This document shows positions 35,646 through 63,968 of a DNA stretch of 64,000 nt, piece by piece. Location: positions 1 to 64,000 of the forward strand of contig CAMAUZ010000010.1 in the NCBI GenBank assembly GCA_945861535.1, written 5' to 3'. Origin of the DNA: Akkermansia muciniphila. GTDB lineage: Bacteria; Verrucomicrobiota; Verrucomicrobiia; Limisphaerales; BJHT01. Position 1 is the stretch's first letter. Every line of letters begins with the position of its first letter. The notes beneath the pieces are model-generated. The model was not told the DNA's origin, did no database searches, and saw only the letters and a program-made list of their open reading frames with translations. The translations under genes were made by a program, and so were the position numbers.

Positions 35646-38600
35646 ATGCTCGTCCGAAACCTCCCGTCGCCCAGCCCGCCCGCGGCCCGCCACGCGGTCT
35701 CACGCTGGCCGAGCTTCCTCCGCCGCCGCTTACGTTCTCCCGGTCACACCACCCTGTTGCTCTTCGTAGCCTTAGCCAGCGTCCTCTGCCTGCGCGCCCC
35801 CGCCGCCGACCTGCCGCCCGCTGCCGCCCCCGAAGCCCGCGAATTTTTCGAAAAGAAAATCCGCCCGGTGCTGGTCGAGCATTGCTACGAATGCCACAGC
35901 GCCACCACGACCAAGAAGCTCGGCGCCGGTCTGCGCCTCGACTCCCGCGCGGCCCTGCTCAAGGGCGGCGAATCCGGCCCCGCGCTGGTCCCTGGCAAAC
36001 CCGAGGAGAGTCTCCTGATCCGCGCCGTGCGTTATGCGGACAAGGAATTCCAGATGCCGCCCAAATATCAGCTTCGGGCCGCGCAGATCGCCGACCTCAC
36101 GGCCTGGGTGAAAATGGGCGCGCCCGATCCCCGCACGGCCACCCTCGCCGACGCTGCGCCGCCCCAGCCCAAGGCCATCGATCTCGCCGCGGGCCGCCAG
36201 TTCTGGGCCTTCCAGCCGATTCAAAATCCGCCGCCACCCAAGGTCCGCGACGCGCACTGGCCGAGGACCGCCCTCGACCAGTTCATTCTCGCCGATCTCG
36301 AAGCGAAGGGCCTCGCGCCCGCGCCGCCCGCCGACAAGCGCACGCTCCTCCGTCGCGCCACGTTCGATCTCACCGGCCTGCCGCCGACGCCCGCCGAGGT
36401 GCAGTCCTTTCTCGCCGACACCGCGCCGCAGGCCTTCACGCGCGTGGTCGAGCGGTTGCTCGCGTCGCCGCATTATGGCGAGCGCTGGGGCCGCCACTGG
36501 CTCGACGTCGCGCGCTACACGGACTCGAACGGCCTCGATGAAAACCTCGCCTACGCCAATGCCTACCGGTACCGCGACTACGTCATCCGCGCCTTCAACG
36601 CGGACAAACCCTACGACCGTTTCCTCCACGAACAGCTCGCCGGCGATCTACTCCCCGAGAACCCCGCCGCCACCGGGACCGAAAAATTCGATCCCCTGAT
36701 CGCCACCGGCTTCCTCGCGCTCGGCGGCAAAATGCTCGCCGAAGACGATCCGCTGAAGATGGAAATGGACATCATCGACGAGCAGGTGGACACGACCAGC
36801 CGCGCGCTGCTCGGCCTCACGATGGGCTGCGCCCGCTGTCACGATCACAAGTTCGATCCCATTCCGACCGAGGATTACTACTCGCTGACGGGCATCTTCA
36901 AGAGCACCAAAACGATGGAGAACTTCCGCGTCGTCGCGGTCTGGCACGAGCACAAGCTCGCCACCCCCGAGGCCCTCGCCCTCAACAAAGCCCACGACGA
37001 ACTGCTCGCGCGCAAGGCCGCCGAAGTGCAGCAGCGCACCACCGCCGCGCAGCAGGAATTCCTCGACCGCGAACGACCCAAGGCCGCGCAGTATCTGCTC
37101 GCCGCCGCGCAATCCGTGAGCCACGCCGAGGCCCCGCGCCGCGTCCCGCCGCCCGCGCCGCTCAAGCCGACCATGGCCCTCAACGCGAAAGCCACGCCGC
37201 CCGGCGCGTTGCTGATCGAAGCCGAGAACTTCACCCGCGGCACCTTCCTCAAGCGCGGCCCGGTCATCCTGAACAAGGGCGGCGAGGACTATTTCAACGA
37301 GGCCGAATACGAGTTCGAAATCACCACCACGGGCAACCACCAGCTCGATCTTCTCTACACCTCGACCGGCGGACGCTTCTTCCGGCTCTTCCTCGATGGC
37401 GAATTGCTCAACGCCAAAGCCGTCACCGGCGACACCGGCGGCTTCGCGGACAATCTCGTACGCTGGTTCGCCGAAGACATCGTCGCGTTGAAGAAAGGCA
37501 GACACACGCTGCGCATCGAACAGACCGGCCCCACGCCGCACCTTGACCAGATTGCCTTCGTGCCCACGGCCGCGCCCGCGACCATCGCGCTGCCCGAGCC
37601 GAAGCCGGGCTTCAAAAGCCCGCAACAACTCGCGCGCGAACACAAACTCAGCGAACCCATCCTCCAACGCTGGATCGCCTGGCTGCGCGAACAAAAGCCC
37701 GCCGCCGACAGCGTCTGGTTCCCCGCATTGCAACTACACGCCACCGCGCCCGCCACTGTGGGGCAGGCTTCCAGCCTGCCAGTTCGGGCGGCATCCGTGC
37801 CGCCCGTTCCGACGGCGGACGTGGGGCCCGGCGGAAACAGGAACTCGGGGCTGGGAAGCCCCGAGAACCGGCAGGCAAGGATGCCTGCCCCACATGCACC
37901 GCCCTCGGTGCCGCAGGCGTCCGCGCCTGCGAGTTCCGGCGGCGTCTCGCCGCCAAGCCCAATCCCCACCGCCACCCGCGCCCGCTTCACCCCCGCCGAT
38001 CTCGCTAACGCCGCGACGCTGACCACCCGCTACACCGCCCTCTTCGCCGAGGCCGCCACCGCGCAACCCGCGACGAACGGCGCGCACCGGCTCGACATTG
38101 GAATGTCGAGCTACTTTGCCGCGCTCGCGCCCCTGCGCGCCGCCCTCCGCGATCCCCAAGGCCCGTTCCAAGTCCCGCCCAAGCCCGAGCGCTTCTACAC
38201 CGACACCGCCAAGGCCGACCTCAAGCGCCTCGAGAAAGAGCAGAAGGACCTCGAAACCAAACGCCCCGCCTTGCCCGCCGCGATGGGTGTGCGCGAAGGC
38301 AACATCATGAATCTGAAAGTCCATCTCCGCGGCAACTACCTCACCCAAGGTGCGGAAACTCCGCGCCGCTTCCCGCGCGTCCTCGCCGGCGACCACCCGC
38401 CGGTCATCGACTCCACGCGCAGCGGGCGCCTCGAATTCGCGCGCTGGCTCACGCAGCCCGAGCATCCGCTCACCGCGCGCGTGATGGTGAATCGCATCTG
38501 GCACTGGCACTTTGGCGCGGGAATCGTGCGATCGACCGACAACTTTGGACGCCTCGGCGACCGCCCGACGCACCCGGCGCTGCTCGATCACCTCGCGCGC

Positions 38601-39308
38601 GAATTCATGCGCCAGGGCTGGAGCCTCAAAGCCATGCACCGCCTCCTCATGCTCTCCAGCACCTACCAGATGAGCACCACCACCAGCCCCGCGACGCTGG
38701 CCGCCGATCCCGAAAACAAACTCTTCAGCCGCTTCAACCGCCGCCGTCTCGAAGCCGAGGAAGTGCGCGACGCCATCCTCGTCATGGGCGGCACGTTGGC
38801 GCCGCAGTTCGGCGGGCAACTGATGACCTTCAAAAACCGCCAATACGTCACCGGCGTCGCGGGCGTCGGCGCGCAGGCCGCGAACTACGACACGCCCCGC
38901 CGCAGCGTGTATCTCCCCGTGTTGCGCAGCGCGGTCTATGAGGTGATGCAGGCCTTCGACTTCGGCGACCCCAGCGTCATCAACGGCGAACGTTCGAGCA
39001 CCACTGTCGCCCCGCAGGCCCTCTTCATGATGAACCACAAGCTCGTCGCCACCAGCGCCACCCGCCTCGCCGATTCGCTCCTCGCCGCCGCGGAACTCGA
39101 TGACACCGAGCGCATCCACCGTGCCTACGAACAAACCGTCAGCCGCCCGCCCACCGCCGCCGAAACCACGCGCCTCCTCGCCTTCCTGCGCCAAGCCGAA
39201 GCCCAGCTCGGCCCCGAACCCACCGCCCCCGAAGCCCGCCGCCGCCTCCTCTGGCGCAGCCTCTGCCGCGTGCTCATGGCCGCCAACGAGTTTGTCTATC
39301 TGGAATAA
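35646..39308 (+). CDS. Second PSD1-type secreted cytochrome c protein, with repeat-derived insert
   Basis: 1220 residues from the ATG at 35646, which precedes a leader (HTTLLLFVALASVLCLRAPA). Further upstream the frame is antisense to hsdS and is rejected. PSCyt1 has CYECH in VLVEHCYECHSATTTKKLG. DUF1549 is RRATFDLTGLPPTPAEVQSF, PHYGERWGRHWLDVARYTDS and MGCARCHDHKFDPIPTEDYY. A CBM6-like domain (LLIEAENFTRGTFLKRGPVI; LFLDGELLNAKAV) sits near residues 520-640. DUF1553 closes the protein (RVMVNRIWHWHFGAGIVRST, PRRSVYLPVLRSAVYEVM, PQALFMMNHKLVATSA). Residues about 705-770 are encoded by two palindromic repeats and are low-complexity. No DUF1501 gene is adjacent. Confidence 0.9.
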   Translation: MLVRNLPSPSPPAARHAVSRWPSFLRRRLRSPGHTTLLLFVALASVLCLRAPAADLPPAAAPEAREFFEKKIRPVLVEHCYECHSATTTKKLGAGLRLDSRAALLKGGESGPALVPGKPEESLLIRAVRYADKEFQMPPKYQLRAAQIADLTAWVKMGAPDPRTATLADAAPPQPKAIDLAAGRQFWAFQPIQNPPPPKVRDAHWPRTALDQFILADLEAKGLAPAPPADKRTLLRRATFDLTGLPPTPAEVQSFLADTAPQAFTRVVERLLASPHYGERWGRHWLDVARYTDSNGLDENLAYANAYRYRDYVIRAFNADKPYDRFLHEQLAGDLLPENPAATGTEKFDPLIATGFLALGGKMLAEDDPLKMEMDIIDEQVDTTSRALLGLTMGCARCHDHKFDPIPTEDYYSLTGIFKSTKTMENFRVVAVWHEHKLATPEALALNKAHDELLARKAAEVQQRTTAAQQEFLDRERPKAAQYLLAAAQSVSHAEAPRRVPPPAPLKPTMALNAKATPPGALLIEAENFTRGTFLKRGPVILNKGGEDYFNEAEYEFEITTTGNHQLDLLYTSTGGRFFRLFLDGELLNAKAVTGDTGGFADNLVRWFAEDIVALKKGRHTLRIEQTGPTPHLDQIAFVPTAAPATIALPEPKPGFKSPQQLAREHKLSEPILQRWIAWLREQKPAADSVWFPALQLHATAPATVGQASSLPVRAASVPPVPTADVGPGGNRNSGLGSPENRQARMPAPHAPPSVPQASAPASSGGVSPPSPIPTATRARFTPADLANAATLTTRYTALFAEAATAQPATNGAHRLDIGMSSYFAALAPLRAALRDPQGPFQVPPKPERFYTDTAKADLKRLEKEQKDLETKRPALPAAMGVREGNIMNLKVHLRGNYLTQGAETPRRFPRVLAGDHPPVIDSTRSGRLEFARWLTQPEHPLTARVMVNRIWHWHFGAGIVRSTDNFGRLGDRPTHPALLDHLAREFMRQGWSLKAMHRLLMLSSTYQMSTTTSPATLAADPENKLFSRFNRRRLEAEEVRDAILVMGGTLAPQFGGQLMTFKNRQYVTGVAGVGAQAANYDTPRRSVYLPVLRSAVYEVMQAFDFGDPSVINGERSSTTVAPQALFMMNHKLVATSATRLADSLLAAAELDDTERIHRAYEQTVSRPPTAAETTRLLAFLRQAEAQLGPEPTAPEARRRLLWRSLCRVLMAANEFVYLE
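37758..37893. repeat. Palindromic repeat inside the second PSD1 gene
   Basis: 136 bp bounded by inverted arms GTGGGGCAGGCTTCCAGCCT and AGGATGCCTGCCCCAC, with inner palindromes GGGCGGCATCCGTGCCGCCC and GGGGCTGGGAAGCCCC. It is translated in frame as low-complexity peptide (GQASSLPVRAASVPPVP). Confidence 0.85.
37909..37957. repeat. Repeat family G, half copy inside the second PSD1 gene
   Basis: TGCCGCAGGCGTCCGCGCCT followed by GCGAGTTCCGGCGGCGTCTC and GCCGCC, matching the left half of 22056-22160. Translated as QASAPASSGGVSPPS. Confidence 0.8.
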
Positions 39309-39875: not shown

Positions 39876-42800
39876 TTACGGCTGCGGGGTCGCGCGGTAG
39901 AAGCGGCGGGCCGCGCCGGACGACGTGGTGTCCACGTAGATGTAAGGGCTGGTGGGCAGCGTGACGGTGGTCAACGGAGTCCAGACCGTGGGGGTGCCGA
40001 GGACGGTCGCGAACTCGACCTGATAGCGGGCGCCGATCGGCCCGTTGATGATGACGCCGCCGAAGTAAGCGCCATCCACCAGCGCGACGGGCACGTCCAT
40101 GCTGACGGCCTGGCCGGCCGCGTTACGAACTTCCAGGCTGTAAGCGCCGAGATCGGCGGGCTGGAACGAGGGCAGGGTCAACGTGAGGCTGTTGGCCCCG
40201 AGGATGTTGGTCCCGTTGATCCGCCATTGATACGTCAACGGCCCGGTGCCGAAGATCGCATTGGTGGGCGCGGCGAGCGTTAGAGCACCGCCGCTGCTGA
40301 CGGTCGCACCTGGCAGGCCGTTGCGGAACAGCGTGTCGCCGATGACGGGCGGCGCGGTGATGGTGACATTGGCGACCGAGCTGGTCACCGAGCCATTGGC
40401 ATTACCCGCGACGAGCGTGTAAGCGCCGTTGGCGACCTCGACCATGAGCTGGAGCTGGCCGTTCTCGACCAATTCCGTGATGGACGCGCCAGCCGGGACA
40501 CCGGCGGCACCGAAGGAACCAGCGCCGCCGTGCATCTGGTCGGCGATGAGGTAGGAGCGGTAGCCAAGGATGGCGGTCATATCAATGATGCCGGACGCCT
40601 CTTCGTCCTGCGTGAGGAAGCCGGGCTGGCCGGTGGTCACGAGGTTCGGGCGGTGCTGGCTCACGAGGACGAGCGAATCCGTGGCGAGGACATACTTCCA
40701 CGTTTTGCCGTTGTGGCTCTGATTGCCCACGTCTTCCTGGATGAGCAGGTTGCCGTCGTTGTCGAGGCCGAGGTTGTCACCCATTTTGACGCCTTCGGTG
40801 CCGTCGAGGAGCATGTCAATCACGCCGCCCATCTCGGGGTTGGCGATGTCGTTGAAGCGCAGACGCCAGAGACGGCTGGGGAGGGCGAAGCTCGCGGTGG
40901 TGAGGAAATAGAAGTCCCGTGGATTGGTCAGGCTCCACAGGCCGTCTTCGACGCGCGAGAAGGCGGTGACGCCGTTCGTGTTGCCGAAGATTTCCAGGCC
41001 ATCGAAGGTCTGGTTGCTCGCATCACCGAGGTTGAACAGGGTGAAGTTGCGCTGAACGGAGGTGGTGCCCGCCACTTCCTGCGCGAGGCCAGCGACCGCC
41101 ACGCCGTAGAGCGAGCCGTTCATCAGACCGGCCTTCTCCACTTCGTTCGTGCCAGTGGCCTGCTTGGTGCCGATGTAGAAATACACCTGCGAGTCCGTCG
41201 TGCCGTCGTCGTCGAGGCCGGCGACGATGGTCTTGTCCTGCGCGAACGGGCTCGCGACGATGTTTTCCCAAGAAGCGCGGCCGAAGCGCGGGAGCTGCCA
41301 GGAGTTGCCGGCTTCGGGACCAGTGGCGATGTGCGCCCAAGCACGGGACTCAGAGGAGAACTCTTCACCGTTCATGAAAAGCTTCTGCTGCGAACCCTTG
41401 CCGGTGGCGGCGTTGAAGAACGCCGTCGGAACGGGCAGGTCAGCGGCGCAGAAGCGGCCCATGAGGACGTTCGTGCCGAGCGCGTAAACGGAGGTGTTCG
41501 TATTGAACACATACACGTTGGTGATGAGGTCGCTGCCGTCGAGCACCGCGAGGTTGCTCTTGGCGATGATGAACTTGGTCACGAAGGCACCCTTCGCGCC
41601 GTGGCGGCGGGCGATGCCGCTGGCCTCGTTGATTTCGTGGTTGGCCAGCACCGTGAAGGTGCCGTTGCCGTTGTCGTAGGCACCGAGTCCGTCCATGACG
41701 CCGGCCGCGCGGCGGGGCGTGCCGTTCGGGTTCGTGCCGGCGAAATCACCCACCGAGATGAGCGAGATGAACGCGTAGCCGGAATCCACGGCCTCTTGGA
41801 AGGGCGGGCGGCTGCTGCTGGGACCAGTGTGGTCGAGGCCCGCGCTGCCGCGCACGTTGTTGAGCGTGAGCGAGGGACCGTTCGCGCCGGGGATGGCGAC
41901 GCCGTTCTTGAACCATTGGAACGAGGTCGCACCAGCGACGTTGGCCATGAGGTTCACCGTACCGCCCGCATTGACCACCGTGTTCACCGGCGGCTGCGTG
42001 TTGAAGACCGGGGAGACGGGCTGGGGCGGGGCGCCCGGAGTGGCGGCGCCGGCGGTGCTGAGCACGCCGTAGGCCGAGAGCGCGGTCCAGTCGGCCGCCC
42101 AGTTTTGGGAACCGAAAGCGCCGACGAAGTTCACCGGCGTGAGGAAGCCGTCCACCGGCAAGGTCTTGGCCAGGCCGGCGAGCGCCGGGCTGGCGGACTG
42201 CGGACGCGGATCGAGCATCCCGGTGGCGCTGCGGCTGATGCCCATGAGCATCGGATCGGCGATGAGGTTGCTGCGCGTGGTGTCGGTGAAGAGCACGTCG
42301 CTGTTCAAGACATTGAGGTTGGCGACCGTGTTGCCGGCGGTGAAGCCGAACCAGAGGTTGTTCTCGAACTTGAGGATGCCGTTGGTCAGGTGCAGACCGG
42401 ACTTGGCATCAATGGAGACGCCGCGCTGCGCGTAGTCGGTGAAGATCGAGTTGAAGAAGCGGGGGGCGGCGTATTCGCGGATGGTGAACACGTTGTTGTT
42501 CGCGCCGCCGGAGCCGACGCCCGCACCGATGGCGGTGGCGTTATAGACCGCGAAGTTCGCGATCGGCGCCGCGCTGGTCGCCAGACCGGTCGGCTCGCCG
42601 TTGAGTTCGAAGCCTTTGTCGCGCGCGTCGGGCGACTGGATGCTGAACCAGAACTGGTTGCGGCCGCTGTAGCCTTGGTCGGCATCAAACGCGTCGTCGT
42701 CGTTGAACGCGCTGACGAGGTAGCGGGTGTTGACCGTGCCACCGAAGAACTCGAAGCCGTCGTCCGCCGTGGCATAGGCCTCGATGAACTCCAGCGTCGT

Positions 42801-44771
42801 GCCGCGGCCCACGCCGCAGACCGAGAGGCCGTTCAGTTCCTTGTTGGATTCGAGAATCTTGCCGCCGTGCCGGATCGACACGTAGCGCAGCACGCCGGAG
42901 TTGTCGTTGTCATCGCTGCCACCGAAACGGTGGACGTTCTGCCCGCCGAGGACCACGTCAGGCAGGCCTTCGAAGATGTCATACTTGGGACTGGCCGCCG
43001 CGCCGCCCGCGTCGCTCGGGGTGTTGAGCCCGGCCTTGCCCAGCAGGACGATGCCGCCCCAGAGACCGCGCTGGGTAAGCCCGAGGTTCGGCCACGCACC
43101 GGCGGTGCCGAGGTTGTCGGCTTCGGCGGTGAACACGATGGGGTTGTTGGCCGTGCCGTTCGCAAAGAGTTTGCCACCGGCGGTGATGAAGAGCGCGCCG
43201 AAGACGCCGGGCGCGCCGTCCTTGCCCTTGACGATGGTGCCGGCCTCGATGGTGAGCGTCTGGCCCTGCTTCACGTAGCAGTAGCCGTTGAGCACATAAA
43301 CATTGGTGCGCGACCAGCGGACGGTGGGGCCGGCCGCGGTGAGCGAGGCGTCGGTAACTTGCACGATGTTCGCCGGGGCGCGCTGCGGCGTGACGCCGAG
43401 CTGCGAGAGGGCCGTCCAGCCCGCGAGCCAGAGGTTGTTCTGATCAAACGCGCCCTTGAAGGCGGCGGATTGGAGGAAGCCATTGTTGGGCGCCATGAGG
43501 CTGCTGACCAAGGCGGGGCTGCCGGCCTGCGGACGCGGGTCCAGCCCGCCGTTGGCCGTGCGGCTGATGCCCATGAGCATCGGATCGGCGATGACGTTGC
43601 TGCGCGCGGTGTCGGTGAAGAGGACGTCGCTGTTCAAGACATTGAGGTTCGCGACCGTGTTGCCGGCGGTGAAGCCGAACCAGAGGTTTTCGCGGAAGTC
43701 GAGCAGCCCGCTGTTCAGGTGCGTGAGGGACTTCGCATCAATCGAAATGCCGCGCTGGGCGAAGTCGGTGAAGATGGAGTTGTAGAACCGGGGGGCGGCG
43801 AATTCGCGGATGGTGAACACGTTGTTGTTCGCACCACCGCTGCCCACGCCCGCGCCGATCAGCGTGGCGTTATAGACCGTGAAATTGGCGACGGGCGCCG
43901 CGCCGGTGGCGAGGCCGGTCGGCTCCCCGTTCAATTCGAAGCCCTTGTCGCGGGAGTCCGCGGCCTGGATGCCGAACCAGAACTGATGTTGCCCGCTGTG
44001 GCCCTGGTCGGCGTCGAACGCGTCGTCGTCGTTGAACGCGCTGACGAGGTAGCGGGTGTTGACCGTGCCGCCGAAGAACTCGAAGCCGTCGTCCGCCGTG
44101 GCGTAGGCCTCGATGAACTCGAGCGTCGTGCCGCGGCCCACGCCGCAGATCGAGAGGCCGTTCAGTTCCTTGTTGGACTCGAGGATTTTGCCGCCGTGCC
44201 GGATCGACACGTACCGCATCACGCCGGAGCTGTCGTTGTCATCGCCGCCGCCGAAACGATTGACGTTTTGCCCGCCGGTGACGACGTCGGGGAGGCCCTC
44301 GAAGATGTCATACTTGGGGCTGGCCGCCGCGCCGCCCGCGTCGCTCGGCGTGTTGAGCACGGCCTTGCCGAGCAGGACGATGCCGCCCCAGAGCCCGCGT
44401 TGCAGGAGGGTCAGATTCGGATAGGCGCCCGCCGTGCCGAGATTGTCCGCCTCGGCCGTGAAGACGATCGGGCCGCTGGGGGTGCCGTTGGCGAAAATCT
44501 TCGCGCCGGCGGTGATGAACAGCGCGCCGAAGACGCCGGGTGCGCCGTCCTTGCCCTTGATGATCGTGCCGGCCTCGATGGTGAGCGTCTGGCCCTGTTT
44601 CACATAACAGTAACCATTGAGCACGTAGGTGTTCGTGCGGGACCAGTGGATGCTGGGGCCGGCCGCGGTGAGCGTGGCATCGGTGACTTGCACCACATCG
44701 GCGAGAGATTTCTGACCCCACAGCGTTGCCGCCGCCAGCAAGGCCATGCTTCCAAGTTTTTTCAGTTTCAT
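39876..44771 (-). CDS. Large secreted PhoX/DUF839-like protein with duplicated N-terminal module
   Basis: 1631 residues with a signal peptide (MKLKKLGSMALLAAATLWGQ). Two nearly identical modules of about 440 residues follow (each begins VQVTDA-LTAAGP and contains VLNGYCYVKQGQTLTIEAGT, GGKILESNKELNGLS, FIEAYATADDGFEFFGG, FNDDDAFDADQG). They look like right-handed beta-helix modules. Next come an Ig-like domain (MANVAGATSFQWFKNGVAIP) and a PhoX/DUF839-type phosphatase-like region (FISLISVGDFAGTNPNGTPR, GTFTVLANHEINEASGIARR, LFMNGEEFSSESRAWAHI, GNLLIQEDVGNQSHNG, SGIIDMTAILGYRSYLIADQ). A second Ig-like domain and the shared C-terminal module ending RRFYRATPQP finish it. It probably acts outside the cell on phosphate esters; the assignment rests on motif style and is not proven. 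Confidence 0.85.
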   Translation of the reverse strand: MKLKKLGSMALLAAATLWGQKSLADVVQVTDATLTAAGPSIHWSRTNTYVLNGYCYVKQGQTLTIEAGTIIKGKDGAPGVFGALFITAGAKIFANGTPSGPIVFTAEADNLGTAGAYPNLTLLQRGLWGGIVLLGKAVLNTPSDAGGAAASPKYDIFEGLPDVVTGGQNVNRFGGGDDNDSSGVMRYVSIRHGGKILESNKELNGLSICGVGRGTTLEFIEAYATADDGFEFFGGTVNTRYLVSAFNDDDAFDADQGHSGQHQFWFGIQAADSRDKGFELNGEPTGLATGAAPVANFTVYNATLIGAGVGSGGANNNVFTIREFAAPRFYNSIFTDFAQRGISIDAKSLTHLNSGLLDFRENLWFGFTAGNTVANLNVLNSDVLFTDTARSNVIADPMLMGISRTANGGLDPRPQAGSPALVSSLMAPNNGFLQSAAFKGAFDQNNLWLAGWTALSQLGVTPQRAPANIVQVTDASLTAAGPTVRWSRTNVYVLNGYCYVKQGQTLTIEAGTIVKGKDGAPGVFGALFITAGGKLFANGTANNPIVFTAEADNLGTAGAWPNLGLTQRGLWGGIVLLGKAGLNTPSDAGGAAASPKYDIFEGLPDVVLGGQNVHRFGGSDDNDNSGVLRYVSIRHGGKILESNKELNGLSVCGVGRGTTLEFIEAYATADDGFEFFGGTVNTRYLVSAFNDDDAFDADQGYSGRNQFWFSIQSPDARDKGFELNGEPTGLATSAAPIANFAVYNATAIGAGVGSGGANNNVFTIREYAAPRFFNSIFTDYAQRGVSIDAKSGLHLTNGILKFENNLWFGFTAGNTVANLNVLNSDVLFTDTTRSNLIADPMLMGISRSATGMLDPRPQSASPALAGLAKTLPVDGFLTPVNFVGAFGSQNWAADWTALSAYGVLSTAGAATPGAPPQPVSPVFNTQPPVNTVVNAGGTVNLMANVAGATSFQWFKNGVAIPGANGPSLTLNNVRGSAGLDHTGPSSSRPPFQEAVDSGYAFISLISVGDFAGTNPNGTPRRAAGVMDGLGAYDNGNGTFTVLANHEINEASGIARRHGAKGAFVTKFIIAKSNLAVLDGSDLITNVYVFNTNTSVYALGTNVLMGRFCAADLPVPTAFFNAATGKGSQQKLFMNGEEFSSESRAWAHIATGPEAGNSWQLPRFGRASWENIVASPFAQDKTIVAGLDDDGTTDSQVYFYIGTKQATGTNEVEKAGLMNGSLYGVAVAGLAQEVAGTTSVQRNFTLFNLGDASNQTFDGLEIFGNTNGVTAFSRVEDGLWSLTNPRDFYFLTTASFALPSRLWRLRFNDIANPEMGGVIDMLLDGTEGVKMGDNLGLDNDGNLLIQEDVGNQSHNGKTWKYVLATDSLVLVSQHRPNLVTTGQPGFLTQDEEASGIIDMTAILGYRSYLIADQMHGGAGSFGAAGVPAGASITELVENGQLQLMVEVANGAYTLVAGNANGSVTSSVANVTITAPPVIGDTLFRNGLPGATVSSGGALTLAAPTNAIFGTGPLTYQWRINGTNILGANSLTLTLPSFQPADLGAYSLEVRNAAGQAVSMDVPVALVDGAYFGGVIINGPIGARYQVEFATVLGTPTVWTPLTTVTLPTSPYIYVDTTSSGAARRFYRATPQP
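42040..44696. repeat. Intragenic tandem duplication of about 1.32 kb
   Basis: Copy 1 spans about 43372-44696 and copy 2 about 42040-43371 on the minus strand. Protein identity is high throughout and long DNA stretches are identical, for example around 42242-42361 and 43568-43687. The unit is a multiple of three, so the frame is kept. Confidence 0.85.
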
Positions 44772-44957
44772 ACGTTAGTTTTTCCGGTGTTTAGGTTGGT
44801 TGACCGAGTGCTGCTTTCAGCACGCGACGATTGAACGCAACGCACGTTACGACCGCACTGCGGTTGAGTGACGATCCGGTGAAACCGGCGGCGAGGTCAT
44901 GGCTCTCCGATGGTGCCGCGCTCCTCGGGTGGCGCCGGGCGGCGGGCCGCGGCGGTT

Positions 44958-46970
44958 TCAGGCGTGGGCGGCCCGGAGCAGCGCGGTCGCGGGCAGGCGC
45001 GGCGCGACGTTTTCCGTGGCCGCTGTTTCCCGGGCGCGCCGCGCGGTGAACGGGAGTACGCCGCCCTCGCGATAGAGCGTGATGGAGACGTGCTCGTTGC
45101 GGCGGATGCAGTCTTTGATGGCGTCGGGGTGCCGCTCGCAGTGGAGCAGCGTTTTCCACGAGTAGATGTCCCGGGGTTTGTGGAAGTCGCTGTTGGCGAT
45201 GAAGGGCATGCGCTTGAGGCCCACGGGCGCGAAGATGTCGTTGCGGTTGGCGATCTCCCACGCGTCGAGCAGCGGCGCAAATTCGTCCTGATTCTCCCAC
45301 AGGAAGAGCGTGTTTTTCCCCCAGTCGCTTTTGAAAACGTGCGGATGCGAGGCGACGGCCAGCGCGCCTTGGGCGTGGAGTTGCGCGATGGTCTCGGGCA
45401 GGTCCAGCGCGGACGCGATGGGCATCTGCATGTCGATGCCGAGCAAATGGGCGGAGCTTTTCTTCGTCAGGCCGTCCTTGTTGAACTCGATGCCGGAGAG
45501 CACCAACATCCCATACTTGTTCCAAGCCCGGCGGCGTTCGCGCTCCAACACGTCGAAATATTCCGCGACCCGGCCCTCGGCCAGCACCAGCCGGCTCAGT
45601 TTGCTCAGTTTGCCAATCAGCCGCCGCGGATCAGTGAGATGGTCGGTGATGCAGATGCAGTGGAAACCCCGCACGCCGTAGAAGTCCACCAACTCCCGCA
45701 CGCTGAGCTTGCCGTCGGAGTAATCGCTGTGCATGTGGAAATCGCAGAGCAACGCCGGGCGGGCGGCGGAGTCTTCCAAGATCGCGGGCGCCAGGGAAAC
45801 ACCGGTGTCGGGCAGAACGTTCACGGCGCCGATCCCAAATTTCGACCAATCGCCCGCGTCGTCACAGTGAGTGAGGACCAGTTCCGCGATGCGCAGCGCG
45901 GCGGCGGGGCGGGAGACCCGGAGCAGGTTGGCCCGCCATTCGTGCCAGAGCAGGGAGCGCCGGGCAAAAACGCGATCGAGGATCTCCGGCACCTCGCGGT
46001 TGCGTTCGGCGACGGCGCCAAGGCCCAGTTGCTCGATGAGTTGCGCGTTGCCGGCCTCCTGGCCGGGGATGATCTGGTTGATGATCATCGGGCAGCGCGC
46101 CGCAATGGCTTCTTGCACCATCGCCCCGCCGGCCTTGCCGACAAGAACATGGTGCGAAAGCAGCAGCGCGGGCATCTGGTCGGTCCAGCCGAGCACCCGC
46201 ACGCGTCCGCTGCGGTCGCGGAAGCGTTCTTGCAACTCCGCCTTCAGCTCCGCATCCCGCCCGGTCGTGATGGTGAGATGCACCCGCTCATTGTCCAGCA
46301 GGCGGTCCAGCACCTTGCCGTACTTCTTCTTACCGTGATTGATCACATAGAGGAGCTTGATCGGGCCGGCCTCGGTGAGCGGAAGCGGCACGCTCTCCGG
46401 CGCGGCGAACTGGGGGCTGACCGGAAAACCGAGCGGATGGATGCGCGCCGGGTCCACGCCCGCCGCGCGCAACACGACGGCGGTAGGCTCGTTCGCGACC
46501 ACATAGACATCGCTGGGCGCGCGATGCCACGCGGCATTCACGGAGATGGAGTCGGTGACGATGGTGATGAACCGGAATGGCTTCTCGAAATGGTCGCGGA
46601 ACAGTTCCTTCATGATCGCCGCGTAGGCCGGGTAGGTCGAAACCACGCAGTCGGGCTGGGTTACGCGCAGCACATCCCCGAGCGCCACGCGCAGCCGCGT
46701 GAGTCCGCCGATGCCGCTGTCGGCGAACGACGCGTTATCGAGCAGCGAGTAGATGCCCTGCCAGAGCGTGGGGGCATAGCGCACCATGCCGAGATGCGCC
46801 TTTTTCACGAGGGTGTTCAACCGTCCGTAAGTGCTCTCGAAGAGATCCAGCACTTCGACCTGCACCGCAGGCGACACGAGTTCCAACGCCTCGCGGAGAT
46901 TGCGCGCGGCCGAGTTATGACCTTCACCAAATCCGGCGGTGAGAATGAGCACCTTCTTAACCTTCTTCAT
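44958..46970 (-). CDS. Fusion protein: MGDG synthase-type glycosyltransferase + PHP phosphoesterase
   Basis: 670 residues. Residues 1-390 are a GT28-type glycosyltransferase of the MGDG synthase/UgtP kind: VLILTAGFGEGHNSAARNLR at the N-terminus, DCVVSTYPAYAAIMKELF, ITIVTDSISVNAAWHR, LLYVINHGKKKYGKVLDRLL, HHVLVGKAGGAMVQEAIAAR and CPMIINQIIPGQEAGN for the sugar-nucleotide half. From about 405 a PHP domain carries the metal-binding motifs DFHMHSDYSDGKLS, CITDHLTD, SGIEFN, VASHPHVFKSDWG and ANSDFHKPRDIYSW. There is no signal peptide. The GT half predicts glycosylation of diacylglycerol or a similar lipid at the cytoplasmic membrane, and the PHP half predicts phosphate-ester hydrolysis. Position between the PhoX-like and phytase-like genes suggests a link to phosphate stress. 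Confidence 0.88.
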   Translation of the reverse strand: MKKVKKVLILTAGFGEGHNSAARNLREALELVSPAVQVEVLDLFESTYGRLNTLVKKAHLGMVRYAPTLWQGIYSLLDNASFADSGIGGLTRLRVALGDVLRVTQPDCVVSTYPAYAAIMKELFRDHFEKPFRFITIVTDSISVNAAWHRAPSDVYVVANEPTAVVLRAAGVDPARIHPLGFPVSPQFAAPESVPLPLTEAGPIKLLYVINHGKKKYGKVLDRLLDNERVHLTITTGRDAELKAELQERFRDRSGRVRVLGWTDQMPALLLSHHVLVGKAGGAMVQEAIAARCPMIINQIIPGQEAGNAQLIEQLGLGAVAERNREVPEILDRVFARRSLLWHEWRANLLRVSRPAAALRIAELVLTHCDDAGDWSKFGIGAVNVLPDTGVSLAPAILEDSAARPALLCDFHMHSDYSDGKLSVRELVDFYGVRGFHCICITDHLTDPRRLIGKLSKLSRLVLAEGRVAEYFDVLERERRRAWNKYGMLVLSGIEFNKDGLTKKSSAHLLGIDMQMPIASALDLPETIAQLHAQGALAVASHPHVFKSDWGKNTLFLWENQDEFAPLLDAWEIANRNDIFAPVGLKRMPFIANSDFHKPRDIYSWKTLLHCERHPDAIKDCIRRNEHVSITLYREGGVLPFTARRARETAATENVAPRLPATALLRAAHA

Positions 46971-47057
46971 GGCGGTTTCTTTTTAGCGTGGCGCGGGCAG
47001 GTCACATTCCGGCGGCGGCGGCGCAACGATTGGGTGAAACCGCGCTGCCACCGGCGA

Positions 47058-47140
47058 GGTAGGGCGCGGCTGTCCGCAGCGCGCCGCTTGGGGCGGTGAC
47101 ACCCACCACGGCGGCGTGCTGCGGACAGCCGCGCCCTACC
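47058..47140. repeat. Inverted repeat element, 23-bp perfect arms
   Basis: GGTAGGGCGCGGCTGTCCGC plus three bases at 47058-47080 is the exact complement of 47118-47140, around a 37-bp loop. It lies in the divergent gap 46971-47349 between the GT-PHP fusion and the phytase-like gene, which otherwise shows no gene. Confidence 0.85.
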
Positions 47141-47349: not shown

Positions 47350-50300
47350 ATGAAACTACCCTCCTGCCATCTGCTCCTCCTCCTCGCCCTGCTCGCGCCG
47401 TCATTCGTCGCGCGGGCGGCCCTGACTCCGCTCGCCACCATCACGTCCCACCCGGGCGGGGGCGAGATCCAGTCCTACGACAAGTTCAACAAAATCCTCA
47501 TCGGCACGATCAACGGCGGCGTGGAGTTCTACAGCCTCGCCAATCCCGCCGCGCCCGTGCTGCTCGGGACCAACGACCTCACCGGAGTGTTCTCGTTGCC
47601 CAACACGCTCGGCAACGTGAGCAGCGTGGCCGTGGACCCGATGGGCCGCGGCGTGGGTGTCGCGCTTTGCATCCCGACGGTGAACGACGCGGTGCCCGGT
47701 AAACTGGTGTTCTTCAATCTCGTCACCCGCGCGACGCTCCGCGTGGTGGATGTGGGCTACCACCCCGACATGGTCACGTTCACGCCCGACGGCGCGAAGG
47801 TGCTCGTGGCCAACGAAGGCGAGCTGGTCAGCAACGGCACGGTGGACCGCCCCGGTTCCCTGAGCGTCGTGACCGTCCCCTATCCGGCCGGGCCGCTGTT
47901 GCGCCTCACGGAAGTCATGTCCAGTTCACTGGCCGTGACCGCAGACTGGTTCGAGCTGGTCAATCTCGGCGACACGCCCGTGGACCTGACGGGTTTCCGC
48001 ATGGATGACGGCAGCTTCCTCTTTGGCTCCGGCGTCGCGCTGACCTTTGGGGGTTTCGGCGGAACCACGCAGTTGCAACCGGGTGAAACCGCCGTGTTCA
48101 CAGAGTCCACAGATCTCGCCGCCTTCCGCGCGACGTGGAAACTGCCCGCCGCGGTCAAAATCGGCTCCTACGGCGGCAGTGGTGTCGGACTGAGTTCGGG
48201 CGGCGACGGCGTGGTTTTGTTCAATGCGGCGGGCGTAGAGCAGCACCGGGTGAGCTTCAGCACCGCGACGTCGGGCCGGAGCTTTTACTGGGAGTATGAT
48301 GCCGCCGGCAATCTGCTTACGGCGCCGGGCGGCACCTTCAGCATCGCCGACGTCAATGGCGCATTCCGCAGCACGGGTGCGACACCAGACTTCGGTTCGC
48401 CGGGCGTGGTGAACCGGACTGACGTGCCGATGCCGGCGGTGGTCACGGTGGATTTCCAAGGCGTCAACCTCAGCGCCGCGCGCATCAACCCGCTCTACAC
48501 CACGACGAACGCGGCGAATGCCTACCTCGACATCGAGCCCGAGTATATCACCGTCAGCGGCGGCAAGGCCTACGTCACGCTTCAGGAAAACAACGCGGTG
48601 GGCGTGTTCAACCTGGCCACCAACGGCTGGGAAGCAGTGCTCCCGCTGGGCAGCATCAACCAGCTCATCGACGCCTCCGAGAAGGACGGCATCCGCATTG
48701 ATGACACCGTGACGGGCCTGCCGATGCCCGACGCCATCGCGAGCTTCACCGTCGGCGGCCAGACCTACTTCGTCACCGCGAACGAGGGCGATGCCCGCGA
48801 CGACAACGCGCTGCTGGGCCGCCGCACGGAGGAAGCGCGTGTGAGCGCCGTGACCGCGCAAATCGAGCCCGCCTACCTCGCGCAGCTCAACGCCTTCTAT
48901 CAGGGCATCATCACTCAGAACGTCACCCATGTGAACGCGCTGGGTGACTTGCGCGTGTCCAAGTTCGACGGTCTCAACGGCGGCGGGCTCATCACCAACC
49001 TCGTGATGTATGGCACGCGCAGCTTCTCCATCTACACCGCGTCAGGCGTGCGGGTCTTCGACTCTGGCTCCCAGTTCGAGCACATCATCGCGGCCCGCAA
49101 CCCCGCGCTCTTCAACACGGACAGCGGCCTGCCCAGCAACGTGGACAAGCGCTCCGACAGCAAAGGCCCCGAGCCGGAAGGCGTCGCGGTGGGCGAAATC
49201 AACGGACGCCTCTACGCCTTCATCGCGCAGGAGCGCGCGGGTGGCCTGTTCCAGTTCGACGTGACCAATCCGACGAATGCCTTCTTCGTGGACTACCGCA
49301 ACACCACGGCCAGCCCGCGCCATGTCTCGCCGGAAAGCGTGCTGTTTATCGCCGCGAGCGACAGCCCGACGGGCAACCCGCTCGTGCTCGTGGGTTATGA
49401 GTTGAGCAGCGACATCCAAATCTTCGACGTGACCACCACGCCGCCCGTCATCGTGCAGGCTCCGCGCAATACTTCCGGCAGCCCTGGCGGCACGGCAACG
49501 TTCAGCGTCGGAGCCATCGGCAGCGGCCTCAACTATCAATGGCTGCGCAACGGCACGCCCCTCGCGGGGGCGACGAACGCCGCCTACACTGTGGCGAATG
49601 TGACGACGGCCGGGCATTACTCGGTGGTCGTGAGCACGCCAAACAACGGCTCGGTCGCCAGCCCGGCGGCGACGCTCACGGTGGTGCCCGCGCAGTTCGC
49701 CGGTGCCGCCAACCACGGCCTGGTCGGCGTGGGCCGCATCCCGGCTGACTCCTTCGACAAGCTCGGTGCGAACGTGGACACCCTCGGCGGCATCTTCTCC
49801 GCCGGCTACTTCGACCAGCACTCGTGGTTCCGCACCGGCGCACCCGGCAGCCACACCTACGGCGGCAACCTCTATGCGCTGCCGGACCGCGGCTTCGGCG
49901 ACGGGGCGGAAGACTACCACCCGCGGGTGCAAACGCTCGCGCTTACCGTCACCCCTGCGCCGACCACCGGCAGCGGCCTCCCGCAGAACCAGATCGTGAT
50001 GAGCAACAGCGCGACGCTGGTGTTCACCTACACGAACGCTTCCTCCGTCGTGACCAACTTCACCGGCTTCAACGCGGATGACGCGAGCAACGGCGTCTTC
50101 CCGCAGAGCACGCCCGGCGGCAAGGGTCAGGGCCGCCGCAGCCTCGACGGCGAGGGCATCGTCCGCACGCGCGACGGGGGCTACTGGATCAGTGACGAAT
50201 ACGGCCCGCTGATTCTGCGCTTCGACAGCAACGGCGTGCTGCAAAGCTCCCTGCCCATCCCGGCCTCGCTCCAACCGCAGCGCGGCGGCACCAACCTCTT

Positions 50301-51534
50301 CCAGGCCGCCAGCACGGTGAACACCTCCGGTCGCCGCCCGAACCGCGGCCTCGAGGGCCTCTCGATCACGCCCGACGGCCGGCGGCTCTTTGCCATGCTC
50401 CAAAGCCCGACCATCCAGGACGGCGGCGCGAACAACCTCAGCCAGAACACCCGCCTCCTGGTGTATGACCTCGAGGCCGGCAGCCCGACACAGAATCAAG
50501 TCATCGGTCACTACGTTTACCAGCTCACGCTGCTGGGCAGCACGACGACCAACCGCCACACGCCCGTCAGCGCCATCTTCGCCTTGAACGACCGCCAACT
50601 GCTCGTGCTCGAACGCGACGGCATCGGCCTCGGCGGCACGGCGGGCGCGCCCATCTACAAGCAGGTGGTCCTCGCCGACCTCACCAGTGCGACCAGCCTC
50701 ATCGGCACCGGCTACGACCTGCCGCTCGGCACCGTGGGACAATCCAACCTCCCGCTGGGCCTGACCCTGTCCGGCGTGGTGCCGGTCGCCCGCCACGATT
50801 TCGTGAGCCTCATTGACACGAACCAACTCGCGCGCTTCGGCCTCAATGCTGACGCCACCCGCGACACCAATTCCATCACCGAGAAGTGGGAAGCCGTCAC
50901 CCTCGTCCCGCTCAACGATCCAGCTACGCCCGACGACTACCTCATGCTCGTGGGCAACGACAACGACTTCAAAGCCTCGGTGGTCCATCACAACGGCGTG
51001 CCCGTGGGCACCAACACCGTGGTCCTCGACACAATGCTGCTGGCCTGGCGCGTGACGCTGCCGGGCTACGACGGCCCGCTGGTGCCGAAGTTCCGCACGC
51101 CGCCTGCCTCCTTCGCCGGCGCGGCCGGTGGCGCGGTGAACCTGACTGCGGGCGCCGTGGCGGATGGTGCGCTGGCCTTCCAGTGGTTCCGCGACGGCAT
51201 CGCCATCACCGACGCGACCAACGCGACCTACAGCATCACGTCGGTGCAACCCGCACACGTCGGCAATTACACCGTGGCCGTGCAGAGCGCGTTCGGCTCC
51301 GTGACGAGCGGCAACGCCAGCGTGGCGACCGTCGAGACGGCGTTCTTTGGCGGCATCAGCGTGGAGAGTCCGGCCGGGGCGCGCTTCACATTCCAATCCC
51401 TTGACACCCTGGGTGCCACCAACACCTGGCAGAGCCTGGATAATGTCATCCATCCCGGTGGCCGGCAGCTCTACATCGACACCACGTCCCCTGCGGTCCA
51501 GCGCCGCTTCTTCCGCGCCCTGCCAACCCCGTAA
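47350..51534 (+). CDS. Secreted phytase-like protein with nested lamin-tail domain
   Basis: 1394 residues from the ATG at 47350, which starts the leader MKLPSCHLLLLLALLAPSFV. Domain order: choice-of-anchor I beta-propeller (YHPDMVTFTPDGAKVLVANE, then LDIEPEYITVSGGKAYVTLQ and ENNAVGVFNLATNG), interrupted by a lamin-tail domain at about 180-360 (LTEVMSSSLAVTADWFELVN, DLTGFRMDDGSFLF); Ig-like domain (GGTATFSVGAIGSGLNYQWL); esterase-like phytase domain (RSLDGEGIVRTRDGGYWISD, EYGPLILRFDSNG, NRGLEGLSITPDGRRLFAML); second Ig-like domain; and the C-terminal module shared with the PhoX-like protein (AFFGGISVESPAGARF to RRFFRALPTP). It probably releases phosphate from phytate or other esters outside the cell. 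Confidence 0.87.
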   Translation: MKLPSCHLLLLLALLAPSFVARAALTPLATITSHPGGGEIQSYDKFNKILIGTINGGVEFYSLANPAAPVLLGTNDLTGVFSLPNTLGNVSSVAVDPMGRGVGVALCIPTVNDAVPGKLVFFNLVTRATLRVVDVGYHPDMVTFTPDGAKVLVANEGELVSNGTVDRPGSLSVVTVPYPAGPLLRLTEVMSSSLAVTADWFELVNLGDTPVDLTGFRMDDGSFLFGSGVALTFGGFGGTTQLQPGETAVFTESTDLAAFRATWKLPAAVKIGSYGGSGVGLSSGGDGVVLFNAAGVEQHRVSFSTATSGRSFYWEYDAAGNLLTAPGGTFSIADVNGAFRSTGATPDFGSPGVVNRTDVPMPAVVTVDFQGVNLSAARINPLYTTTNAANAYLDIEPEYITVSGGKAYVTLQENNAVGVFNLATNGWEAVLPLGSINQLIDASEKDGIRIDDTVTGLPMPDAIASFTVGGQTYFVTANEGDARDDNALLGRRTEEARVSAVTAQIEPAYLAQLNAFYQGIITQNVTHVNALGDLRVSKFDGLNGGGLITNLVMYGTRSFSIYTASGVRVFDSGSQFEHIIAARNPALFNTDSGLPSNVDKRSDSKGPEPEGVAVGEINGRLYAFIAQERAGGLFQFDVTNPTNAFFVDYRNTTASPRHVSPESVLFIAASDSPTGNPLVLVGYELSSDIQIFDVTTTPPVIVQAPRNTSGSPGGTATFSVGAIGSGLNYQWLRNGTPLAGATNAAYTVANVTTAGHYSVVVSTPNNGSVASPAATLTVVPAQFAGAANHGLVGVGRIPADSFDKLGANVDTLGGIFSAGYFDQHSWFRTGAPGSHTYGGNLYALPDRGFGDGAEDYHPRVQTLALTVTPAPTTGSGLPQNQIVMSNSATLVFTYTNASSVVTNFTGFNADDASNGVFPQSTPGGKGQGRRSLDGEGIVRTRDGGYWISDEYGPLILRFDSNGVLQSSLPIPASLQPQRGGTNLFQAASTVNTSGRRPNRGLEGLSITPDGRRLFAMLQSPTIQDGGANNLSQNTRLLVYDLEAGSPTQNQVIGHYVYQLTLLGSTTTNRHTPVSAIFALNDRQLLVLERDGIGLGGTAGAPIYKQVVLADLTSATSLIGTGYDLPLGTVGQSNLPLGLTLSGVVPVARHDFVSLIDTNQLARFGLNADATRDTNSITEKWEAVTLVPLNDPATPDDYLMLVGNDNDFKASVVHHNGVPVGTNTVVLDTMLLAWRVTLPGYDGPLVPKFRTPPASFAGAAGGAVNLTAGAVADGALAFQWFRDGIAITDATNATYSITSVQPAHVGNYTVAVQSAFGSVTSGNASVATVETAFFGGISVESPAGARFTFQSLDTLGATNTWQSLDNVIHPGGRQLYIDTTSPAVQRRFFRALPTP

Positions 51535-56370: not shown

Positions 56371-57153
56371 TTAATTCACCGCGAGTTCCGGCCGGCCGAC
56401 GCCGAGCGAGCGGATGGCGTCGGCGACCTCGTCGGCCAGCGCGCGGTTGTCCACGTACTTGTGTTCCATGGCGGTGGAGAGCTCGGTGTTGAAGTTGTCC
56501 AGCTCGTGCGTGGTGTGCCGGATGGTCGTGATCATGAAGTTGAAGGCGAACATCGCGGGGATGGCCACGAACAGCCCGACGACCGTGGCGATGAGTGCGC
56601 CCGCCACGCCGGGCGCCATCGCCGTCAGGCTGGCCGCCTTGGAAATCGCGATGCCCGAGAAGGTTTCCATCACGCCCCACACCGTCCCCAGCAGGCCGAT
56701 GAACGGCCCGCCCGCCACGGCGGTGGACAACACAATCATCCCTTTCTCCAAGGCCAGCGCCTCCGCCCCGGCCGTGCGATCCATCGTCACGAGCACCGAT
56801 TCGAACGAGGCGCTGCTGATCTTCGTGTCACCCTTCACTTTCACCGGATTGTTCTCCCAGTGAAACGCCAGTTCCTCGGCTCCGGCCAGATACACTTCAT
56901 AGGCTGGCGCGCCTTCGAACTCCCGTTTGGCGCGGAACAGTTCCAACGGATCGCGGGTCTCGCGGAACGCGGCGAAGAAGGCCTTGCTCTGCCGCCCCGC
57001 CTTCGCCAACTGCCGCCATTTGTTGATGATGACCGTCCAGCTCACGAGCGAACAGATGGCCAGCAGACCGATGGTGATCTTGCCCTCCATGGTGGATTTC
57101 TCGAAGGCGAACGAGAGCGCGTTGGCCAGGATGGGCGTAAAGGATGGGTCCAT
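56371..57153 (-). CDS. exbB: ExbB/TolQ/MotA-family proton channel protein
   Basis: 260 residues from the ATG at 57153. A first helix (ITIGLLAICSLVSWTVIINK) is followed by a cytoplasmic loop and the two C-terminal helices with family signature text (GMIVLSTAVAGGPFIGLLGT, VWGVMETFSGIA, AMAPGVAGALIATVVGLFVA, IPAMFAFNFM). It energises outer-membrane transport with ExbD and, by context, with the TonB-like helix of the fused receptor. A longer frame to 57366 is rejected because the extra residues lack any membrane character and overlap the regulatory repeats upstream. Confidence 0.92.
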   Translation of the reverse strand: MDPSFTPILANALSFAFEKSTMEGKITIGLLAICSLVSWTVIINKWRQLAKAGRQSKAFFAAFRETRDPLELFRAKREFEGAPAYEVYLAGAEELAFHWENNPVKVKGDTKISSASFESVLVTMDRTAGAEALALEKGMIVLSTAVAGGPFIGLLGTVWGVMETFSGIAISKAASLTAMAPGVAGALIATVVGLFVAIPAMFAFNFMITTIRHTTHELDNFNTELSTAMEHKYVDNRALADEVADAIRSLGVGRPELAVN

Positions 57154-62780: not shown

Positions 62781-62825
62781 ACCGTGAACCATCCGCCTAA
62801 CAACACCAAACGCAGCATCGGCTGG

Positions 62826-63968
62826 ATGGGCATCCATCGCGGGCACAAGGCGCGGCCCGCCGAGTGGCTGGCGGAGCAGTTCATCTACCTCGTTTCGCTG
62901 ACGGCGATCCTGATGGTGATCCTCATCTTCGTGTTCGTCGCGCGGGAAGCGCTCCCCGTGGTCTTCGGCCGGATGAACAGTGCCGCCGCGCGTCCGACGA
63001 TTCCCGCCACGGAGATGGGGATACTGAAACCCGACGAATTGCGGGACTACTTGGGACTGACTCCGGCCGAGTTCAAGCGGATGGACAAGGAAGCCTTGCA
63101 GGCGCTCATGGAAGTGCGGGAGGAGGAGGCGAAGGAAGCGCCCAAGGACAAGGACGCCACGGTCAACACGACGGAATGGCGCTATCTCTTCGGCGCGCAT
63201 CAATGGTCCGACAGCCGCCCGGAGGATCGCTACGTCTGGCAACCCATCGGGCGCATCCACAAATACAATCTCATTCCGCTCATCATCGGCAGCCTCAAGA
63301 CCACGCTGGTCGCATTGCTTTTCAGCGTGCCGCTCGCGCTGGCCGCCGCGCTGTATGTTTCGCAGCTCGCCTCCCCGACGCTGAAGGAATGGCTGAAGCC
63401 GGCGATTGAACTGCTGTCCGGGGTGCCGTCAGTGGTGCTCGGCTTCTTCGGGCTGATCGTGATGGCGTCGTTTTTGCAGCATGTCTTCGGCTACCAATCG
63501 CGGCTGAACGCCTTTGTCGCCGGCATCGCGCTCGGGCTGTCGGTGATTCCCGTCGTGTTCTCGATCGCCGAGGACGCGCTGACCAGCGTGCCGGGGAGTT
63601 ACACCCAGGCGGCGCTGGCGCTGGGTGCTTCGCGCTGGCAGACCGCCTGGCAGATCGTGCTGCCCGCCGCCGCGCCGGGCGTATTTGCGGCCGTGGTGCT
63701 GGGCTTCGGGCGCGCGATTGGCGAGACGATGGTCGTGCTGATGGCCAGCGGCAACGCGAGCATCGTTTCATGGAGCTTGTTTGACTCGACGCGCTCGATC
63801 ACCGCGACCATCGCGGCGGAACTGGCTGAAGCGGTTTTCGGCGGACACCATTACCGCATGCTCTTCCTCATCGGCGCGATGCTCTTCATTGTGACCTTCC
63901 TCACGAATCTCGCGGGCGACCTCATCATGCACAAACTCAAGGGGCGGCTGGAGGGGAAGGCGCAATGA
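62826..63968 (+). CDS. pstC: Phosphate ABC transporter permease PstC
   Basis: 380 residues from the ATG at 62826 (a GTG at 62784 is possible). The first helix is FIYLVSLTAILMVILIFVFV. A roughly 110-residue extracytoplasmic loop follows, then the PstC/PstA core: PLIIGSLKTTLVALLFSVPL, LAAALYVSQLASPTLKEWLK, LSGVPSVVLGFFGLIVMASF, SVIPVVFSIAEDALTSVPGS, ALALGASRWQTAWQIVLPAA (the EAA-type loop), and GFGRAIGETMVVLMASGNAS. With PstA and PstB, presumably beyond the window, it takes up inorganic phosphate. The stop is directly followed by a heptamer repeat. Confidence 0.92.
   Translation: MGIHRGHKARPAEWLAEQFIYLVSLTAILMVILIFVFVAREALPVVFGRMNSAAARPTIPATEMGILKPDELRDYLGLTPAEFKRMDKEALQALMEVREEEAKEAPKDKDATVNTTEWRYLFGAHQWSDSRPEDRYVWQPIGRIHKYNLIPLIIGSLKTTLVALLFSVPLALAAALYVSQLASPTLKEWLKPAIELLSGVPSVVLGFFGLIVMASFLQHVFGYQSRLNAFVAGIALGLSVIPVVFSIAEDALTSVPGSYTQAALALGASRWQTAWQIVLPAAAPGVFAAVVLGFGRAIGETMVVLMASGNASIVSWSLFDSTRSITATIAAELAEAVFGGHHYRMLFLIGAMLFIVTFLTNLAGDLIMHKLKGRLEGKAQ

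Follow-up and report, generated by a model that had tools for sequence, protein, structure and literature searches.

We report a gene in which a glycosyltransferase (GT) of the MGDG synthase type is joined within a single polypeptide to a PHP phosphohydrolase, and we consider it probable that the product is a bifunctional enzyme converting phospholipid to glycolipid, in which PlcP, elsewhere a separate hydrolase, is replaced by the PHP half. The gene lies in a window of 64,000 nucleotides, this being the whole stretch of DNA analysed. In the PlcP route as published, removal of the head group by PlcP leaves diacylglycerol, to which a glycosyltransferase then attaches the sugar of a UDP-sugar (PMC8528852, PMC9239053). 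In the open-licence literature we found neither an account of an MGDG-synthase-PHP fusion nor one of a lipid-acting PHP. To our knowledge, no PHP enzyme has been proven to act on lipids.

The minus-strand open reading frame extends from ATG to stop over exactly 44958-46970 and encodes 670 amino acids (Table 1). The opposite strand also carries a long frame (44910-47099, +); homologues and fold support the minus-strand frame. Pfam recognises MGDG_synth at residues 18-184 (1.3e-18) and Glyco_tran_28_C at 227-333 (3.5e-5), and with both domains and the conserved motifs present the first half belongs to the MGDG-synthase/UgtP-type GT28 enzymes, though it scores 127.6 bits on the UgtP equivalog NF010135 of NCBIfam, for which the cut-off is 500. 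In the second half, PF02811 begins at residue 410 (2.6e-6; 28.3 bits against a cut-off of 26.4), and fold and metal-binding residues place this half in the PHP superfamily; the CehA/McbA metallohydrolase model (NF038032) gave 44.4 bits against a cut-off of 80 and was rejected. A sequence search of the PDB returned 2anu (TM0559) for the PHP half at 2e-52, and 9wde (processive diacylglycerol beta-glucosyltransferase) and 4wyi (MGD1) for the GT half.

Table 1. Coordinates of the fusion gene, its parts and associated features (window positions unless a locus is named)
Feature	Coordinates	Strand	Basis
Fused glycosyltransferase-PHP gene	44958..46970	-	670 aa; ORF, Pfam, homologues
GT28/MGDG-synthase-type half, residues 1-373	45852..46970	-	Pfam; 4wyi fold; invariant motifs
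Linker, residues 374-404 (low confidence 379-403)	45759..45851	-	pLDDT <50
PHP phosphohydrolase half, residues 405-636	45063..45758	-	PF02811; 2anu fold; invariant metal residues
Pho-box-like array upstream of fusion, four 7-bp half-sites, 11-bp register	47001..47040	-	18.1 bits; 2.7% tail of 372
Pho-box-like array upstream of PhoX-like gene, outside training	44846..44885	-	20.4 bits
Large downstream gene, Ig domains and PhoX-like region (521 aa, 40272-41834)	39876..44771	-	Pfam; no catalytic claim
Divergent gene, choice-of-anchor I, lamin-tail and phytase-like (PF13449) domains	47350..51534	+	Profile matches
pstC-like permease, start of pstC-pstA-pstB-phoU run continuing to ~67214	62784..63968	+	L132
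GT4-PlcP-like metallophosphoesterase fusions, family f4	L171:2179-4137; L173:2514-4493	- / -	Pfam

An AlphaFold model computed from 40 fusion sequences has a mean pLDDT of 81.8 and a pTM of 0.58, with a disordered linker (379-403) and tail (636-670), and the placement of the two halves relative to each other is therefore uncertain. Taken separately, the PHP half (model residues 404-634) matches TM0559 with Z 34.4 and an rmsd of 1.5 across 220 residues at 40% identity, and the GT half (model residues 2-372) matches plant MGD1 with Z 33.9 and an rmsd of 2.4 across 314 residues at 25% identity. Ten residues of the PHP half (H412, H414, D419, H444, E495, H508, H542, H544, D595 and H597), which we take to be the metal ligands, are invariant in 40/40 aligned fusions, and so are the GT motif residues H18, D140, KAGG 279-282, GQE 303-305 and N308. 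The initial annotation had described an MGDG synthase-type enzyme fused to a PHP hydrolase with intact metal motifs, and both parts of that description are borne out, the first by the reading frame, the Pfam and PDB matches, a second copy and the homologous loci described below.

The second copy, 87% identical, is found on contig C70 of the same genome (7.94 Mb, 169 contigs). It occupies L032:7963-9996 (-) and has a Pho array of its own; the contig, of 41 kb, also carries primase-like and DNA-transfer-ATPase-like genes and is possibly a mobile region. Full-length fusions were present in nine of 387 evenly sampled genomes of the phylum, as ten copies in families f1, f5, f10 and f19. A search of the same genomes with the PHP half alone returned these ten copies, all fused, as its strong matches, with all others at or below 27 bits, so that apart from such weak matches no standalone form of this PHP type was found in the 387 genomes, nor was any in plasmids. 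Outside the phylum, TM0559 is the only standalone member that we know of. When named genomes were scanned with the whole fusion as query and the best 80 of 243 matches were taken, 37 were fusion loci (L052-L088, of which L085 is partial, a contig end interrupting the gene) and 43 were GT-only loci. Holders of the fusion include Methylacidiphilum sp. Yel, Methylacidimicrobium cyclopophantes, M. tartarophylax, a Limisphaerales MAG and a Pedosphaera MAG, and the nearest named relatives, at about 79%, suggest a Limisphaerales/Pedosphaera-like origin for the window. The named and sampled sets overlap (L070 and G054 are apparently one contig), and genes in the loci were called with a custom script rather than a standard gene finder. 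The MAG titles of L053, L054, L055, L056, L058, L078 and L085 (Proteobacteria, Klebsiella, Akkermansia, Betaproteobacteria) clash with their Verrucomicrobiota-type content, and several of them (Klebsiella, Akkermansia, Proteobacteria) look mislabelled. A chance join or a misassembly is excluded by the second copy, by eight further sampled genomes and by the 37 named loci among the best 80 of 243 matches.

The evidence that bears most directly on function comes from the relatives of the GT half that carry no PHP domain. In four of these (L043, L044, L049 and L051) a calcineurin-like phosphoesterase gene adjoins the GT gene, and one such gene (L044:4402-5244) served as the PlcP-like query, with a threshold of E<=1e-20 in the sampled genomes. 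At this threshold 117/387 genomes of the phylum have a match. Among same-class genomes with a strong unfused GT (E<=2e-50) a PlcP-like gene is present in 59/63, the exceptions being G024, G036, G057 and G280, against 0/9 sampled fusion genomes (Fisher 8e-9, the genomes not being independent). The named genomes, again the best 80 of 243 matches, give the same picture: PlcP-like matches at E<=0.001 are found in 0/37 fusion genomes and in 24/43 genomes with an unfused GT (Fisher 6.6e-9), with two more positive controls also found. The other 19/43 unfused-GT genomes, many of them small MAGs, lack a match; incompleteness of the MAGs touches such absence counts, but it hardly explains a contrast of 0/37 with 24/43 among comparable MAGs. 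In 26 genomes one contig carries both the unfused GT and the PlcP-like gene, separated by 10-1123 bases (within 1.2 kb); this adjacency is seen in other families, and in the named unfused loci L089-L131 the PlcP-like gene was not found adjacent to the GT. Among the genomes searched, then, the PlcP-like gene is often present where the PHP half is absent and never where it is present. This exclusion is in part a matter of shared ancestry, since the nine fusion genomes fall in four families. The named fusion loci include those of verrucomicrobial methanotrophs, organisms in which a published survey did not find PlcP (PMC9239053). Given the mutual exclusion, the simplest reading is that the PHP half does the job of PlcP for the GT to which it is attached.

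That reading has to be weighed against one in which the GT half makes a glycolipid and the PHP half acts elsewhere, clearing a by-product or a soluble phosphoester or regulating the GT, without supplying diacylglycerol. TM0559, the nearest PHP relative, is not known to have any function with lipids, and the curated models that match the PHP half are of varied soluble-substrate families, all scoring under their cut-offs. We nevertheless hold this to be unlikely in view of the mutual exclusion with the PlcP-like gene and of the pattern of conservation: mean pairwise identity among fusions is 0.69 for the PHP half against 0.50 for the GT half, and the PHP half is the better conserved in 778/780 pairs, which argues for a catalytic role and not for a loose accessory.

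The identification of the PlcP-like protein itself also deserves comment. A PDB search with it returned no match, and its identity as PlcP therefore rests on plcP-agt gene order and on 42-47.5% identity to Sinorhizobium and P. aeruginosa proteins; the LpxH models gave 40 bits against a cut-off of 134. Among the best plasmid matches, a plasmid-borne P. aeruginosa protein is 47.5% identical to the query, and its gene lies directly 5' of, and overlaps, a glycosyltransferase gene. The order plcP (PA3219) and then agt1 (PA3218) is given in a published account (PMC8528852), and from gene order we infer that the plasmid pair corresponds to PA3219-PA3218. The S. meliloti match (L180) has no listed glycosyltransferase adjoining it. 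In family f4 the PlcP-like domain is found inside open frames of about 650-760 amino acids, of which three were translated and two, checked with Pfam, contain a GT4 glycosyltransferase and a calcineurin-like phosphoesterase in a single chain; many more PlcP-like matches in this family sit in frames of like length. With GT28-PHP and GT4-metallophosphoesterase proteins both present, the phylum has glycosyltransferase-hydrolase fusions built from two unrelated pairs. That the PlcP-like domain of family f4 is fused to a GT4 and not to the GT28 type counts against the reading that we favour.

A tree of the GT domain was made from 78 rows, 43 fused and 35 unfused, the latter remaining from 44 (21 sampled-genome loci and 23 of the 43 named) once nine with a stop or shift inside the match span had been dropped; the partial L085 was omitted. 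Fused and unfused labels need at least four changes on this tree against 25.9 in shuffles, and 0/500 shuffles were as low. One clade holds all the fusions together with 23 unfused rows, and only unfused rows lie outside it. This fits a single gain of the fusion followed by several losses of the PHP half; there may instead have been two or more gains. Five unfused lineages are nested among the fusions, each including at least one PlcP-positive genome, and 12/23 unfused rows within the clade are PlcP-positive.

We then consider regulation by phosphate. Upstream regions were scored against an E. coli-type Pho consensus with 100 shuffles each, and no more than 5/100 shuffles were as good in 15/39 of them (6/100 for the window gene). 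This was suggestive only, and so a half-site matrix was trained. Half-sites of 7 bp resembling NYGTCAC recur at 11-bp spacing upstream of pst, phoB-like, olsB-like and receiver genes, and 19 of them, all from such non-fusion upstreams, make up the matrix, which was used to score four-site arrays across the fusion loci, taking the 150 bp ahead of each predicted gene and giving 372 background genes; upstreams of fewer than 140 bases or containing N were skipped, leaving 38 fusion genes. In the clade of the window gene, 16/17 fusion upstreams fall in the top 5% of the background, a figure to be read knowing that the matrix sites were chosen after the fusion upstreams had been viewed, that the training genes remain in the background and that orthologues are not independent. 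The median score there is 20.0 bits against -6.1 (Mann-Whitney 3e-11, uncorrected for kinship), and the sole member outside the top 5% is L079, even though it adjoins pst-phoU. Only 2/21 fusion upstreams in other lineages reach the top 5% (shift p 5e-4); no four-site array was seen for the fusion genes of Methylacidiphilum and Methylacidimicrobium.

The highest-scoring background genes encode receivers, an ExbB protein, the PhoX-like flanking gene, PhoD, and the pstS and a porin of L079, as expected of a Pho operator. The strongest arrays of the set lie upstream of the ExbB gene (56371-57153, -) and of a receiver-only response regulator (60449-60832, -); ExbB-type genes are also close to the fusion in L052 and L054. 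The divergent phytase-like gene has no array among the top 42 upstream regions. A triple GTCAC pattern lacked specificity across the whole genome (30 matches against 19 for the control), and the exact motif TTCACCCAAYCGTTNC, with zero mismatches, occurs only upstream of the two fusion copies, so this string marks the gene and not a regulon. Within the window clade we predict from these arrays that the fusion gene is a member of the PhoB regulon; the signals for such control are mostly absent in other lineages.

The neighbouring genes follow the same division. The flanks had been described initially as PhoX-like and phytase-like. For the former the Pfam match is marginal (PF05787, 22.5 bits, E 7e-5, under the 24-bit gathering cut-off), while the resemblance gains from a domain about 53% identical that lies inside a PhoD-type protein adjoining the fusion in L053 and L055; the phytase-like label stands, PF13449 scoring 153 bits, as membership of a broad family that does not imply phytase activity. 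The L053 and L055 genes (L053:3625-7521, -; L055:3630-7606, -, called as two pieces) unite PhoD-type phosphatase, Ig and PhoX-like domains in one polypeptide. The window genome has pstC-pstA-pstB-phoU at a distance of 16-20 kb from the fusion, followed by OlsA/OlsB-like and PhoB-like genes. The OlsA-like and OlsB-like genes (L132:5489-7089, -, equivalent to 67488-69088 of contig C10), assigned as best matches under curated cut-offs, sit between phoU and the PhoB-like regulator (69999-70685 of contig C10), and ornithine-lipid synthesis is predicted for this Pho region. Elsewhere, the fusion adjoins phoU, pstB, pstA, pstC, pstS and a PhoR-like kinase gene in L079, a PiT-type transporter is encoded in L052 and L053, and OlsB/OlsA-like genes with a receiver gene are found in L058 and L059. 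In equal amounts of DNA, phosphate or ornithine-lipid genes accompany 6/43 fusion loci and 0/43 unfused loci, all six belonging to the window clade; no phosphate genes were found near the fusion outside that clade, the loci of Methylacidiphilum and Methylacidimicrobium included. Further from the gene, the window encodes two large PSCyt1/PSCyt2/PSD1 (DUF1549/DUF1553) proteins (27439-30558, -; 35757-39308, +) which, with a DUF1501 protein (24949-26457), form a planctomycete-type gene set, and a predicted protein joining an amidohydrolase domain to a class-III aminotransferase domain (17857-20196, -).

It could be argued from these loci that the glycolipid is a normal membrane component, independent of phosphate supply, and that one clade acquired the Pho signals late. 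The Methylacidiphilum fusion copy is flanked by FabI-like and biotin-ligase-like genes, with no phosphate genes in loci of this type, and Pho arrays are few outside the window clade. Such an account is in our judgement improbable, given the arrays in 16/17 members of the window clade and the canonical Pho-box-like pairs that occur outside it in L069, L071, L078, L081 and L088. Least credible, and very improbable, is that the GT half uses a non-glycerolipid acceptor (a polyprenol, a hopanoid or a cell-wall precursor), for although MurG comes next after MGD1 in the fold search (Z 26.8), MGD1 is the best match by about 7 Z units, the Pfam domain is MGDG_synth and unfused relatives are paired with a PlcP-like gene.

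In the bifunctional enzyme that we favour, the PHP half would act on a membrane phospholipid (PG or PE) in the manner of PlcP, taking off its head group together with the phosphate, or alternatively would take the phosphate off phosphatidate, to give diacylglycerol, and the GT28 half would move a sugar from a UDP-sugar onto it at the cytoplasmic face of the membrane; the PHP half would thereby replace PlcP, which elsewhere in the phylum is a separate hydrolase found with the unfused GT. We lean towards the phospholipase C-type reaction over phosphatidate hydrolysis, between which sequence cannot separate. The lipid substrate, the sugar, the sequence of the two reactions and any passage of diacylglycerol from one half to the other are likewise inferred. 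The initial annotation's suggestion of a one-protein lipid-remodelling system gains from the PlcP-like exclusion, the Pho arrays of the window clade and the nearby genes for phosphate and phosphate-free lipids, but the methanotrophs show neither Pho signal; and while the architecture is conserved, the phosphate context on which that suggestion had been staked holds in 6/43 loci and fails in the methanotroph homologues, which tells partly against it. We put at about even the chances of the wider proposal, that a PHP with phospholipase C or phosphatidate phosphatase activity and its own GT form the lipid-remodelling enzyme of PlcP-less Verrucomicrobiota, acidophilic methanotrophs included, and that glycosyltransferase-hydrolase fusions for remodelling arose twice (GT28-PHP and GT4-metallophosphoesterase). 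Should it hold, lipids would join the substrates of PHP enzymes, and surveys in which PlcP marks lipid remodelling would overlook the organisms that bear the fusion; remodelling could then be tested both in the verrucomicrobial methanotrophs and in a phylum that abounds in soils and lakes. The fusion would also provide a natural example of one chain that holds two lipid reactions, one following the other.

Among known systems the closest is PlcP-Agt (PA3219/PA3218 of P. aeruginosa; M. trichosporium OB3b), which likewise combines a head-group-removing phosphohydrolase with a glycolipid glycosyltransferase and has a Pho-box promoter, a feature that the fusion shares in the window clade (16/17) and mostly not elsewhere (2/21). 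The fusion differs in the two features that define PlcP-Agt, its hydrolase being a PHP and not the calcineurin-like PlcP, which is absent from every fusion genome searched, and its glycosyltransferase being of the GT28 type and not a GT4 Agt, with both activities placed in one chain. The GT half has the fold (Z 33.9) and the GHN, KAGG and PGQE motifs of MGD1 and the UgtP-type diacylglycerol glucosyltransferases, from which it is set apart by its 25% identity to MGD1, its low UgtP equivalog score (127.6 against 500 bits) and the added C-terminal hydrolase. TM0559, a predicted PHP phosphoesterase, resembles the PHP half over a 220-residue fold (rmsd 1.5, 40% identity) and is, unlike the fusion, a single-domain, unfused protein. 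The GT4-metallophosphoesterase proteins of family f4 (L171, L173) also unite a glycosyltransferase and a phosphohydrolase in one chain of about 650 amino acids, but are built in both halves from families unrelated to those of GT28-PHP.
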